Of a stretch of DNA of 64,000 nucleotides, positions 46,298 through 50,117 are shown in pieces (position 1 is the stretch's first letter; each line of letters starts with the position of its first letter). The notes beneath the pieces were generated by a model. It made no database searches. It was not told the DNA's origin and worked only from the letters and a program-made list of their open reading frames with translations. This DNA comes from Chloroflexota bacterium (GTDB lineage Bacteria > Chloroflexota > Dehalococcoidia > Tepidiformales > Tepidiformaceae). The stretch is taken from NCBI GenBank assembly GCA_016234445.1, contig JACRBT010000005.1, positions 124,001 through 188,000 of the forward strand. Direction: 5' to 3'. A program made the position numbers and the translations under genes.

Positions 46298-46636
46298 ATG
46301 GCAATCGAACTGACAAAGCCCTGGCGCGAACTCACCACCGCGGGCCTTGCCGCCGTCCGCGGCTACCTCGGCGTCTACGAGATTGGCGACGACCTGGGCA
46401 ACGTCCTCTACATCGGCTTCGCCGGCGGACGCTCGCTCTTCGGGCTCCGCGGCGAACTCGAACGCCACCTCGGCGACCCCGCCGGCCGCAAGACCCGGTT
46501 CCGGGTCGAGGTGAACACGGCCTACATCTCCCGCCACCGCGAGCTCCTGATGGCCCACGCCGCCCGCCACGGCGCCCTGCCCGAACTCAACCGCCTCGAG
46601 CCCGTGCCGCCCCTCGGCCGGCTCAGCCCCGGCTAA
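46298..46636 (+). CDS. GIY-YIG-like small protein
   Basis: 112 residues. YLGVYEIGDDLGNVLYIGFAGG near residues 24-45 fits a GIY-YIG core (G-V-Y ... Y-I-G), followed by LFGLRGELERHLGDPAGRKTRFRVEVNTAYISRHRELLMAHAARHGALPELN. The catalytic Arg/Glu are possible in the later helix, but the protein is short and may not cut DNA. Sits between beta-oxidation-type genes with its own promoter. Confidence 0.6.
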   Translation: MAIELTKPWRELTTAGLAAVRGYLGVYEIGDDLGNVLYIGFAGGRSLFGLRGELERHLGDPAGRKTRFRVEVNTAYISRHRELLMAHAARHGALPELNRLEPVPPLGRLSPG

Positions 46637-46654
46637 TCCCCCCGGAGGAACCAC

Positions 46655-47821
46655 GTGGACCTCGAACTCTCCGAAGAGCAGCGCCTCATCGTCGACACCA
46701 CCCGCCGCTTCGTCCGCGACGAGATCGTCCCCCTCGAAGCAGACCTCGACCCGGACGCGAGCGAACTCGACCCCGGCGACCACGCCCGCCTCGTCGCGAT
46801 GACGAAGCAGATGGGCTTCTACGGACTGGACATCCCGCCCGAGTACGACGGCCCCGACATCGACATCGTCACCCGCACCCTGATGGCCATCGAGATGGCC
46901 CAGCACCGCGCCGGGCTCTATGCCCCCTGCTACGGCGTCTTCGGCGGCGCCGGCCTCGCCCAGCTTTTCGAAGCGAACGACGACCAGAAGCAGCGCTACC
47001 TCTTCCCCACCCTGCGCGGCGAAAAGCACGGCTTCTTCGGCCTGACCGAACCCTCCGGCGGCAGCGACCCCGCCCGCGCCATCCAGACGACAGCCGTCAA
47101 GGACGGCGACGACTGGGTCGTCAACGGCGCCAAGATCTTCATCAGCGGCGGCGACCGCTCTGACTACGGCATCATCTTCGCCCGGACCGACGCGGCGAAG
47201 GGCCGGGGCGGGATCACCTGCTTTATCGTTGACTCGGGCACCCCCGGCTTCCACGTCCGTCGCGTCGTCCACACCCTCCGTTCGACCCACTACGCCACCG
47301 AGCTCCAGTTCGAAGACATGCGCGTACCGGCCCGCAACGTCCTCGGCGAGGTCAACGGCGGTTTCGCCATCGCCAACGACCGCCTCAGCCGCCAGCGGAT
47401 CCCCTACGCCGCGGGCTGCATTGGCGTCGCCGTCAAGGCCCAGGAGATGGCCATCGCCTATGCCAACCAGCGCGAGACCTTCGGCGACCGCCTCGCCAGC
47501 CGCCAGGCCATCCAGTGGATGATTGTCGACAACGAGATCGACATCCGCACCAGCCGCTGGTTGACGCTCGCCGCCGCCGGCAAGGCGAACCGGGGCGAGC
47601 CGTTTCGCACCGAAGCCGCGATGGCCAAGCTGGTCAGCAGCGAAGCCGGGGGCCGCGTCGTCGACCGGGCGATGCAGATCCACGGCGGCTACGGCATGAC
47701 CAAGGACCTGCCCCTCGAACGCTGGTACCGCGAGATCCGCATCCGCCGGATCGGCGAAGGCCCCAGCGAAGTCCAGCGCCTGATCATGGCCCGCGACCTC
47801 CTCGGCGGCTCCTTCCACTAA
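46655..47821 (+). CDS. Acyl-CoA dehydrogenase
   Basis: 388 residues, full length. FGLTEPSGGSDPARAIQTTA near residues 128-147 (FAD/substrate loop), GAKIFISGGDRSDYGIIFAR near residue 161, QRIPYAAGCIGVAVKAQEMAIAYANQRETFGDRLASRQAIQWMI near residues 246-289, and the C-terminal RIRRIGEGPSEVQRLIMARDLL with Glu at the usual catalytic base site. Oxidises an acyl-CoA and passes electrons to ETF, encoded at 16-17.7 kb. GTG start after GGAGGAACC. The last ten codons are duplicated 331 bp downstream in a repeat array. Confidence 0.93.
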   Translation: MDLELSEEQRLIVDTTRRFVRDEIVPLEADLDPDASELDPGDHARLVAMTKQMGFYGLDIPPEYDGPDIDIVTRTLMAIEMAQHRAGLYAPCYGVFGGAGLAQLFEANDDQKQRYLFPTLRGEKHGFFGLTEPSGGSDPARAIQTTAVKDGDDWVVNGAKIFISGGDRSDYGIIFARTDAAKGRGGITCFIVDSGTPGFHVRRVVHTLRSTHYATELQFEDMRVPARNVLGEVNGGFAIANDRLSRQRIPYAAGCIGVAVKAQEMAIAYANQRETFGDRLASRQAIQWMIVDNEIDIRTSRWLTLAAAGKANRGEPFRTEAAMAKLVSSEAGGRVVDRAMQIHGGYGMTKDLPLERWYREIRIRRIGEGPSEVQRLIMARDLLGGSFH

Positions 47822-48152
47822 CCGCCGTCCCCGCCGGCCACCCCCACCATCCGTACCGCGACTGGTAAGGAGCGGAGTACTTCCACTGGAACGAATTTCC
47901 CTCCAGCGGCTCCCGATGCGGTGGCGCCGCTCGGACCTCGGACCTCGCACCTGTCCATCCGTACCGCGACTGGTAAGGAGCGGCGTACTTCCCCTGGAAC
48001 GAATCTCCCTCCAGCGCCTCCCGATGCGGTGGCGCCGCCCGGCCCTCGGACCTTGATCCCTCCAACGGCTCCCGATGCGGTGCCGCCGCTCGTACCTCGG
48101 ACCTCGGACCTTGATCACGTCCCGCGACCTCCTCGGCGGCTCCTTCCACTAA
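47791..48152 (+). repeat. Duplicated 3' end of the acyl-CoA dehydrogenase gene plus spacer
   Basis: 31 bases ending in the gene's TAA (47791-47821) recur exactly at 48122-48152. Weaker similarity starts about 11 bp before and continues after the TAA into the next repeat copy. So a unit of about 330 bp was duplicated in tandem, with one break inside the coding sequence. Confidence 0.8.
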
Positions 48153-48280
48153 CGCCGGGCCCGCCGGCCCCCTCCATCCGTACCGCGACCGCCAGGGAGC
48201 GGCGTACTTCCCCTGGAACGAATCTCCCTCCAGCGCCTCCCGATGCGGTGGCGCCGCCCGGACCTCGGACCTCGGACCCC
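47847..48280 (+). repeat. Interspersed noncoding repeat array (three full copies, one partial)
   Basis: Copies of about 100 bp begin with CCATCCGTACCGCGA at 47847, 47955 and 48174; a part copy lies at about 48058-48107. Each carries GGAACGAAT, CTCCAGCG and CCGATGCGGTG cores and ends in GGACCTCGG units. A minus-strand frame stays open across the copies, but the base changes between copies alter amino acids rather than wobble positions, which argues against coding. No transposase or terminal inverted repeats are seen. Confidence 0.75.
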
Positions 48281-48398
48281 GGACCTCCCCGCTGCCATCT
48301 CCCCCTTCCACCTCCCCCGCCCACCTCACGACCATCGCTGCATGGCCGCGTCCTTCCGCACTTGGACCTCGGACCTCGGGCCTCGGAACTGCCTCCGG

Positions 48399-48424
48399 AC
48401 GCGTTCAACGCGTGTTTTTTTTTT
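48399..48424 (+). terminator. Intrinsic terminator 1
   Basis: ACGCGT-TCA-ACGCGT, then G and ten T. A 6-bp stem with a 3-nt loop, plus-strand direction. Confidence 0.7.
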
Positions 48425-48462
48425 CGTGCACGGCGGATCGGCGCCGGGGACGGGGCGTCGAG

Positions 48463-48483
48463 ACGACTTCAAGTCGTGTTTTT
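48463..48483 (+). terminator. Intrinsic terminator 2
   Basis: ACGACT-TCA-AGTCGT, then G and five T. Same layout as terminator 1 with two changed but still paired stem positions. Confidence 0.65.
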
Positions 48484-48595
48484 CTTCCTGCGCACCCCAT
48501 TTCTTTCGTGGAGACCAGCTGTCGCTCCCGAGCCCCGGGCGGATCGCCGCTCGTCCCCGCCTTCGCCAGTCCGGGTCGCGAGAGGCTTTGGCTCC

Positions 48596-49522
48596 CTACC
48601 CCGCCCGCCTCACGTGGAAGAACCGTTCCATCGAGACCACATTCGGCGCGGCGCCCCCGGCCCGGTCGAGGGCGCAGTCCAGGGCGATGTGGCCGTTGGC
48701 GTCGAACACCCCGGCGAGGTCGCGGCGCGCGAGCGAAAGGTTGTGGGCCACTGCCCCGGCGCTGTCGTCGAGCCGCCAGGGGGAATGCCGCGAAAGGTCC
48801 GGCCTCACCACCCGCACCGGCATCTGGGTGGCGATGTTGGCCTCCATCGCGTCCGTCGTTGCGTGCGAAAGGATAGCGAACGACTGCTTCAGGACGCCGT
48901 AAACCGTCTTCGGGCGGCTGTTTCCCGGCGGTGGCGTGAGGTCGACCGCGAGGATCTCGCTGGCGCCCATTGCCGCAGCGGTGCCCAGGTCGACCGAGGC
49001 CGTCAGGCAGCCGTCGACGAACAACTCGCCGTCGATCTCCACGGGCTCGAACACCGCCGGGATGGCCGTGGACGCGAGGATCGCCTGGCCCAGCCAGCCC
49101 GACCGGAAGACGTGCTTTGCCCCGCGCGAGAGGTTGGTCGCCACCACCGCGAATTCGATCCGGGTGTCCTCAAAGCGCTTGTCGCCGATGTGGTTCGCGG
49201 TCAGTTCCGGGACGATGTTGTTCGTCGTCAGGCTCATCGGGTTGCGGACCAGGCGCGTCGCCAGCCGCCACGGGTTGAGCCGCACCAGGCGCATCTGGTC
49301 GAGCCCGATCCAGATCCGGAGGAGTTCGTCGGGATGGTCCGGGTGGAGCGACAGCCATGCGCCATTGAGCGAACCAACGCTCGTCCCCACGACCAGCCGC
49401 GGGCGGAATCCCTGCTCGTGGGCGGCGTGCATGTAGGCGGCCTGGATCACTCCATAGGCCCCGCCGCCGCCGAGCACCAGGGCCGGCCGCGACGTGCTCT
49501 CGCCAGGTGTAGGCGCCGCCAT
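48596..49522 (-). CDS. Patatin-like phospholipase / esterase
   Basis: 308 residues from ATG 49522. Oxyanion loop LVLGGGGAYGVIQAAYM near residues 14-30, nucleophile elbow VVGTSVGSLNGAW near residues 45-57 (G-T-S-V-G) and the DG/DG-like catalytic Asp in LFVDGCLTASVDLG near residues 163-176. Soluble, serine-aspartate dyad, probably a lipid esterase. Longer starts at ATG 49561 or 49588 are possible; neither has a good ribosome site. Divergent from the DinB gene. Confidence 0.85.
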   Translation of the reverse strand: MAAPTPGESTSRPALVLGGGGAYGVIQAAYMHAAHEQGFRPRLVVGTSVGSLNGAWLSLHPDHPDELLRIWIGLDQMRLVRLNPWRLATRLVRNPMSLTTNNIVPELTANHIGDKRFEDTRIEFAVVATNLSRGAKHVFRSGWLGQAILASTAIPAVFEPVEIDGELFVDGCLTASVDLGTAAAMGASEILAVDLTPPPGNSRPKTVYGVLKQSFAILSHATTDAMEANIATQMPVRVVRPDLSRHSPWRLDDSAGAVAHNLSLARRDLAGVFDANGHIALDCALDRAGGAAPNVVSMERFFHVRRAG

Positions 49523-49613
49523 CCTGCCATCCCCCGTATCTTCGATTGTCGACCAGTTCATGCCGAACATAATGGGCGATCCACCCACCCGTGCCCCGGA
49601 TACCCCCTTCCCG

Positions 49614-49619
49614 TACTAT
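49614..49619 (+). promoter_or_regulatory. -10 hexamer of the DinB gene (leaderless type)
   Basis: TACTAT ends 6 nt before the ATG. Confidence 0.5.
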
Positions 49620-49625
49620 TCCTCC

Positions 49626-50117
49626 ATGACTCCCACCCACCAGGCCGCCATCGACATCACCCGGGCGTCCCTCCAGATGCTCCGCGAAACCATCGACGAC
49701 CTTCCGGACGCGGCCCTCGACTGGTCGCCGGTCGCGGGGATGAACTCGCTCGGCGTCCTCGTCGTCCACTCCCTCTCGTCGACGCTCTTCTGGCTGGGGA
49801 ACGGCGCCGGGCGCCTGCGCTCGATCGCCGACTACCGCAAGGACGACCGCCTGCCGTCGTTCAAGACCACCGGCATCACTGCGGACGAACTTCGCCGCCG
49901 GATCGACGAGACCGCCGCCGAGGCCGGGCGCATCCTCGCTGGCGGCACCGATGCGCACCTCGCCGCGACGGTCACCTTCCCGGAGGACCCTTCCCAGGAC
50001 CGGACCGGCGCGGCTTGCCTCATCAGCGGGATCGCTCACCTCCGCGAACACGTCGGCCACGCCCAGGCCGTCCGCGACTTCTGGGCGGCCACGAGCCCCC
50101 AGAACTCCTGGCGCTGA
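49626..50117 (+). CDS. DinB/DUF664-like four-helix protein
   Basis: 163 residues, all helical. AAIDITRASLQMLRETIDDLPDAALDWSPVAGMNSLGVLVVHSLSSTLFWLGN at the start and GIAHLREHVGHAQAVRDFW near the end give the usual DinB/YfiT layout with His ligands in VVHSL and H-L-x-x-H-x-x-H. Members are thiol- or metal-dependent transferases or uncharacterised. Followed by ribD after 4 bp, likely co-transcribed. Confidence 0.8.
   Translation: MTPTHQAAIDITRASLQMLRETIDDLPDAALDWSPVAGMNSLGVLVVHSLSSTLFWLGNGAGRLRSIADYRKDDRLPSFKTTGITADELRRRIDETAAEAGRILAGGTDAHLAATVTFPEDPSQDRTGAACLISGIAHLREHVGHAQAVRDFWAATSPQNSWR

Follow-up and report, generated by a model that had tools for sequence, protein, structure and literature searches.

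Within the window, meaning the whole 64,000-nucleotide stretch of Chloroflexota DNA that was analysed, an acyl-CoA dehydrogenase gene is followed by a short repeat array and then by a patatin-like gene on the minus strand (identified by Pfam), the two genes converging on the array (Table 1). Three units of about 100 bp, starting at 47847, 47955 and 48174, together with one half unit, occupy positions 47847-48278, and 25 bases separate the dehydrogenase gene from the first unit. This layout bears out the first-pass annotation, which had described an array of ~100-bp repeats. Each full unit carries a 5-nt CCGYR tag followed by an imperfect hairpin of 20 nt, built from a 4-bp stem, tandem G-A mismatches, a 2-bp stem and a GNNA loop. 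The three hairpins, designated REP 1 to REP 3, all lie in direct orientation, and their 3' tag is CGTA or AGTA in place of the CGTC that is common elsewhere. The three were the only matches when the window was scanned with this hairpin grammar, whereas 50 dinucleotide shuffles averaged 0.06, so that they are no chance find.

Table 1. Features of the array and the adjoining gene (window coordinates).
Feature	Position	Strand	Basis
Acyl-CoA dehydrogenase gene, source of the copied 3' end	46655..47821	+	ORF; Pfam Acyl-CoA_dh_1/M/N above cut-offs
Original of the duplicated gene-end segment	47781..47844	+	Direct repeat D3
REP 1: tag CCGTA and hairpin CCGC.GA.CT.GGTA.AG.GA.GCGG	47851..47875 (hairpin 47856-47875)	+	Grammar scan
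Unit 1 tail, GGACCTC heptamers at its end	47876..47954	+	Repeat analysis, grammar scan
REP 2: tag and hairpin as REP 1	47959..47983 (hairpin 47964-47983)	+	Grammar scan
Unit 2 tail	47984..48056	+	Repeat analysis, grammar scan
Half unit, tail only, within a 51-bp tandem duplication	48057..48111	+	TRF period 51, 48006-48104
Captured gene 3' end including the stop codon	48112..48175	+	Direct repeat; 33-base exact match
REP 3: tag CCGTA and hairpin CCGC.GA.CC.GCCA.GG.GA.GCGG	48178..48202 (hairpin 48183-48202)	+	Grammar scan; block difference of tip from REP 2
Unit 3 tail, continuing into a (CGGACCT)4 array	48203..48287	+	Repeat analysis, grammar scan
Isolated (GGACCTC)n heptamer array	48364..48387	+	TRF

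The array also contains a second copy of the end of the dehydrogenase gene. The longest exact match, 33 bases (47790-47822 = 48121-48153), spans the stop codon, and the two 64-base segments listed in Table 1 are 81% identical. A repeat of about 330 bp including the last ten codons had been proposed at first; the repetition of the gene end stands, with the repeated part amounting to the last nine codons plus the stop, the alignable second copy to about 167 bases (48112-48278, the gene end plus one unit), and 331 to the spacing. Once the 600 bases 47781-48380 are masked, no exact 20-mer is repeated on the plus strand of the window. In the nearest dehydrogenase orthologues (L129 and L188) the gene end is single, REPs are absent and different genes lie downstream, so that these loci provide no orthologous empty site. 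The base changes within the array, as had been claimed, follow no reading frame; what had been missed is that they follow the base pairing of the hairpin.

Further along, between the convergent genes, lie two similar palindromes, ACGCGTTCAACGCGT and ACGACTTCAAGTCGT (48399-48425 and 48463-48485), each followed by G and a T run; they are terminator-like and possibly paralogous.

Dispersal, pairing and placement of the hairpin

When the 108-base unit was compared with the 3.54-Mb host genome (20 contigs) in a BLAST-type search, the array gave the only full-length matches. Elsewhere, the matches cover either bases 1-32 (in one case to base 40) or the GGACCTC stretch near bases 81-107. The idea that the 100-bp unit is itself the mobile element was dropped, since no part of it recurs except the first ~32 bases and the heptamer. 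The mobile part is thus about 30 bases long and consists of the tag and the hairpin CCGC-GA-CN-GNNA-N'G-GA-GCGG. Its pattern, CCGCGANNNNNANNGAGCGG, has 96 exact matches genome-wide, against none for the reversed control, and 143 matches when up to one mismatch is allowed (control 20). The full 108-bp unit is therefore found here only, but its core is not, so that the first-pass annotation withstands its own check, under which a unit confined to this site would have told against it.

Base pairing is maintained where sequence is free to vary. When the search constrained the outer arms and let the inner positions vary, 95 of 96 copies had a Watson-Crick inner pair (G-C in 36, T-A in 30 and C-G in 29), where 1000 shuffles gave a mean of 32 and never more than 48. 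In the converse search, which constrained the inner part and let the arms vary, 119 of 125 hairpins formed the third outer pair, as G-C in 92 and as A-T in 27 (shuffle mean 76, maximum 91). Because these positions were left free, both counts constitute an unbiased test of pairing. The folding energy of single hairpins as DNA was no better than that of shuffles and by itself would have left the structure unnoticed. At tag positions -5 to -1, which read CCGYR, the C, C and G are each present in 113 of 115 hairpins. The stem foot is C-G in 115/115, the scan having kept only hairpins starting with CC, and the 3' CGTC is loose (C 79, G 76, T 68 and C 85 of 115).

All 118 hairpins in 53 regions fetched from the host genome fall outside genes, as predicted with a home-made model of codon usage, whose coverage of the window is 90%. 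As a region had to match the pattern or the unit to be chosen, the count for the CCAC/GTGG type is too low. Among 51 intergenic sites, 20 are unidirectional, 15 convergent, 10 divergent and 6 unclassified, and the median distance is 81 bp to the nearest gene 3' end vs 165 bp to the nearest 5' end. The question raised at first, whether the elements always stand after stop codons, is thus answered in the negative, with only a lean toward 3' ends. The view that the repeats are noncoding, recur elsewhere and captured the gene end by duplication is supported.

Hairpins occur on both strands, often as inverted pairs. Inverted neighbours closer than 300 bp are of different types in 35/35 cases (expected same-type rate 0.24), with a start-to-start spacing of mostly 52-59 and 78-101 bp, and direct neighbours are of the same type in 18/29. 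The array of the window contains no inverted pair. Most inverted pairs join CCAC/CT to a CCGC type, and their spacing is fixed; it looks as though a single composite element were assembled from two REP types. Hairpins also lie near the starts of contigs C1, C5, C6, C9 and C18 and near the end of C10 of the host genome (G000).

The GGACCTC heptamer is a separate repeat, its pattern giving 35 matches in the genome and none in the control. Intergenic heptamer arrays of many units (GGACCTC, ACTCGGA, CGGCTGT, TAGCTGT or AGGACTG) were seen at loci L058, L025, L029, L055, L082 and others, as well as at 48259-48287 and 48364-48387 of the window. In the TRF output, period 7 accounts for 42 rows, some of them overlapping, and the periods ranking next (14, 15 and 21) for 11. 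In one relative (L130), the acyl-CoA dehydrogenase orthologue is followed, from 2121, by a (GGGCTCA)n heptamer array.

Transposase genes of the host and its relatives

The host genome contains three genes matching PF01797 (IS200-like, Y1), two of which are flanked on either side, at a distance of up to 1 kb, by repeated hairpins. At the first, on contig C9 (~67.3-67.8 kb, an ORF of 181 aa), a plus-strand hairpin lies upstream and minus-strand hairpins downstream; these hairpins match REP 1 and REP 2 in their CT/AG tip and in their CATCCG-type lead. The second, on contig C1 (~257.8-258.2 kb), is flanked by hairpins of the CC/GG and CCAC types. Both hairpin-flanked proteins carry HVH, WTE and Y----Q (WTEESVELACRYVTDGQ / EHVH and WTEDDISEACTYVSEGQ / THVH), while the third gene, of the Y..NP class, is without hairpins. 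With Pfam Y1_Tnp (PF01797, cut-off 23), the two hairpin-flanked genes score 23.8 and 23.1 bits and so pass only just. With the NCBIfam model for REP-associated tyrosine transposases (NF047646, cut-off 80), these two remain below at 20.4 and 24.8 bits, and the hairpin-free gene scores 74.2. The A2 profile gave no match to solved structures at E 0.01.

Class 3 of TnpA-Y1 has been described as having an HUH motif, Y----Q and W[TA], together with atypical flanking hairpins that have a CnGA 5' foot and a high copy number in the host (text of PMC6006769). In the host's family (37 genomes), at least four hairpins were found in 11 genomes, all of which contain a Y1 gene, as compared with 7 of the 26 others (Fisher p 3.7e-5, uncorrected for relatedness). 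From 44 PF01797 matches in the family, 43 loci were taken, a weak match in G036 being left out, and 22 of them were labelled class-3-like by eye from their motifs. Of these 22 genes, 7 have a strict hairpin at a distance of up to 1.3 kb; of the 21 other Y1 genes, none does. A relaxed grammar matched at 12/22 class-3-like and 4/21 other loci. Ten of the 22 were accepted under the relaxed rule, L212 and L237 being dropped (one unrelated site each) and the four others judged single chance matches; among those accepted, L211 is represented by a single hairpin with a 3-nt loop. The stems found in this way include CCCC/GGGG, GCGC/GCGC and GCCC/GGGC, and the remaining 12 class-3-like genes of the family have no repeated hairpin of the tandem-GA grammar nearby. 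In a wider Chloroflexota sample of 151, a class-3 match at 1e-10 was obtained in the host genome only.

The same arrangement was found in Acidobacteriota, where 12 of 149 genomes contain 21 class-3-like loci. A hairpin is present at 11 of these and absent at the other 10; at 10 of the 11, hairpins form an inverted pair that faces the gene. The outer stems are GCCC, CCGC, ACAC, CCGG, GCGC or ACCC. Alignment of 22 RAYT-flanking hairpins, one or two per locus, gave CnGA as the consensus foot, the next base being A or G; in place of this foot the host's own hairpins have CCGT or CCGC. Five of the six stem pairs change on both sides in this set; as pairing was a requirement of the grammar that found these hairpins, this covariation is partly circular and is overstated by comparison with shuffles.

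Hairpin copy number partly follows the resident transposase. Three genomes have a CCGG-flanked gene, and CCGG-type copies number 221, 18 and 20 there; two of the remaining genomes have 43 and 6, and seven have none. For the ACAC type, the counts are 14 and 5 where an ACAC-flanked gene is present (two genomes); one further genome has 2 copies, and nine have none. In G003, which contains 94 hairpins, none of the three Y1 genes has a strict hairpin, and G242 has 43 CCGG-type hairpins and no Y1 gene found flanked by the strict type. These hairpins may be orphan populations or may belong to genes missed in fragmented assemblies.

Origin of the array

The array is best explained as a REP cluster of a class-3 IS200-like (TnpA-Y1/RAYT-type) REPtron, in which adjoining gene DNA was captured during duplication; a probability of about 0.86 is assigned to this reading. 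The kind of element is known, and the finding is genuine and ordinary in kind. In favour of this reading are the copy number, intergenic placement and pairing of the hairpins and their link to transposase genes in the host, its family and Acidobacteriota. Counting against it are the low scores of the two proteins with general models, the class-3-like loci at which hairpins are absent, the Y1 genes of G003, the 3' tag of the array and the folding energies. On the model of the TnpA-REP systems studied so far (PMC8266576), the 181-aa HUH transposase of contig C9 most likely recognises the folded single-stranded REP. The putative enzyme would cut and rejoin DNA beside the hairpin, thereby seeding REPs into intergenic DNA, and its action on the hairpins would be what spread them. 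An enzyme of class 3 that cuts beside a folded strand would explain the dispersal of the hairpins, their survival between genes and their link to transposase genes. At the array itself, one REP would have been duplicated in direct orientation together with the adjacent DNA, which contained the final dehydrogenase codons and the stop, and the 51-bp tandem duplication would be a second event. This local duplication may have been carried out by the transposase, or may have arisen by slippage or recombination between repeats.

The last of these choices leads to the strongest alternative, in which the local array is an ordinary satellite produced by slippage or unequal recombination, only the seed REP having been mobile and the transposase having had no role at this site. 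All three REPs being direct, the visible 51-bp tandem duplication and the frequency of heptamer arrays in the fetched intergenic regions are consistent with it. Furthermore, the junctions at 48104-48114 and 48050-48060 both carry GGACCTTGATC, and TGATCA is present at the gene end too, which suggests slippage or recombination at short homology; a transposase-made junction is also possible. A satellite leaves the dispersal and the link to transposase genes unaccounted for, and it is compatible with the REP reading, from which it differs in the local step only. We regard it as a serious candidate for that step, if somewhat on the unlikely side. The proposal of the first-pass annotation that the repeats spread by recombination likewise fits the local array and probably not the dispersal, since what is dispersed is a ~30-bp hairpin with compensatory changes, copies of which flank transposase genes.

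A second alternative is that the hairpin is an RNA element, kept for a role in the transcript as a terminator-like or mRNA-protecting 3' structure, its spread being incidental. GNNA loops and tandem GA mismatches are stable RNA modules, and the hairpin combines a GNNA loop, which is GNRA-like, with tandem sheared G-A. Its lean toward 3' ends points the same way, as do its enrichment in convergent gaps (15 of 45 classified sites vs 7 of 49 gaps in the window) and its position on the strand of the genes in 25 of 39 cases in unidirectional gaps. Against this, 10 of the 45 classified sites are divergent, hairpins stand on both strands and often in inverted pairs, and they flank transposase genes in two phyla with differing stem sequences. 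In addition, Rfam gave only four weak matches over 46500-49800, all below gathering scores and none over the array, and assignment of the array to an Rfam family was dropped. A transcript role as the reason for the hairpin is accordingly improbable.

Misassembly of the array from similar repeats is still less probable. REP repeats do break assembly, as is evident at the contig ends: of 40 ends, 6 have a hairpin no more than 500 bp away, whereas 0.29 sites would be expected. The array, however, is located 18.9 kb from the nearest end of its contig (C8, 191,152 bases), and its units differ by up to 6 of 99 bases, so that reads from them are distinguishable. Finally, a protein-coding repeat on the minus strand, for which a 183-aa frame open across the array (47784-48335) could be cited, was dropped as having next to no probability, because long open frames are commonplace in DNA so rich in G+C (one of 2259 aa on the minus strand runs across real genes) and the base changes track hairpin pairing, not codons.

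Within the REP cluster reading, a further possibility concerns the hairpin tip. Between units 2 and 3, 5 of 99 positions are different, and four of these lie in the tip, where the pair is kept (T-A to C-G), and the 50 bases 3' of the hairpin are identical. The same four-position swap separates C5:20103 from C9:27804, the 3' flanks of which are 88% identical. Altogether, 17 pairs of sites have similar flanks; the tips are identical in 14 and different in three (REP 3 vs units 1 and 2, and the C5/C9 pair). As the swaps amount to two events at most, they provide a lead and no result. It is conceivable, if doubtful, that the class-3 REP architecture (4-bp stem, tandem G-A, 2-bp stem, tetraloop) is fixed, that the stem drifts with the transposase and that tips are exchanged as a block. 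If so, single-strand processing or very short conversion tracts would rewrite the tip, and a resident REP could be re-addressed to another transposase.

Comparison with known REP systems

As described in the text of PMC6006769, class 3 shares with the present system the combination of HUH, Y----Q and W[TA], the hairpins flanking the gene and their high copy number. It is there reported mainly from Planctomycetes, Acidobacteria and Proteobacteria, whereas the host here belongs to Chloroflexota, and its CnGA foot differs from the CCGT or CCGC of the host genome. The tandem-GA/GNNA build is not described in that text, Fig. 7 and Table S1 aside, and no claim that it is undescribed is made. A literature search for this build, or for REPs in Dehalococcoidia, returned, as far as REPs are concerned, only the papers cited here and other REP papers.

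The REPINs/BIMEs and the gammaproteobacterial RAYTs resemble the present system, as far as the parts of PMC2817692 and PMC3116915 considered here go, in the inverted REPs that flank the transposase gene, the composite clusters and an abundance that tracks the transposase. They differ in tag and stem, and in that inverted neighbours are here always of two REP types. For the TnpA-REP system of E. coli, it was found that the single-stranded REP is recognised, that mid-stem mismatches and the tag matter, and that the cut is made beside the hairpin (sections of PMC8266576 drawn on here). The present REPs are likewise imperfect hairpins with mid-stem mismatches and a short conserved tag in front, but the mismatch is GA-GA instead of AA-GC and the tag CCGYR instead of GTAG.

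The GTAG- and CGTC-tagged REPs, as presented in the sections of PMC3733652 considered, are also short tagged palindromes that are intergenic, biased toward 3' ends and clustered. Most of their large clusters include REPs reiterated in tandem with flanking DNA segments (PMC3733652), as at the array studied here. The GTAG or GYRG tag of the GTAG superfamily is absent here, where the tag is CCGYR. In CGTC REPs, according to that paper, the foot of the stem consists of A-T pairs and a dedicated transposase is lacking, in contrast to the C-G foot and the loose CGTC 3' of the hairpin strand seen here. Membership in the CGTC superfamily, prompted by that 3' CGTC, was dropped, as stem foot and polarity do not fit.

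With the REP cluster reading, an odd array becomes readable as a cluster accompanied by a probable transposase in the same genome, and the reach of class-3 REPtrons would be extended to Chloroflexota. The captured stop codon shows that such clusters can copy pieces of genes. Moreover, a simple structural search rule, consisting of tandem GA and a CnGA-like foot, finds class-3 REPtrons in two phyla despite their differing stems. Which enzymes move REPs without GTAG is left open in the sections of PMC3733652 considered, and hairpin/transposase pairs of the present kind therefore provide natural test material.
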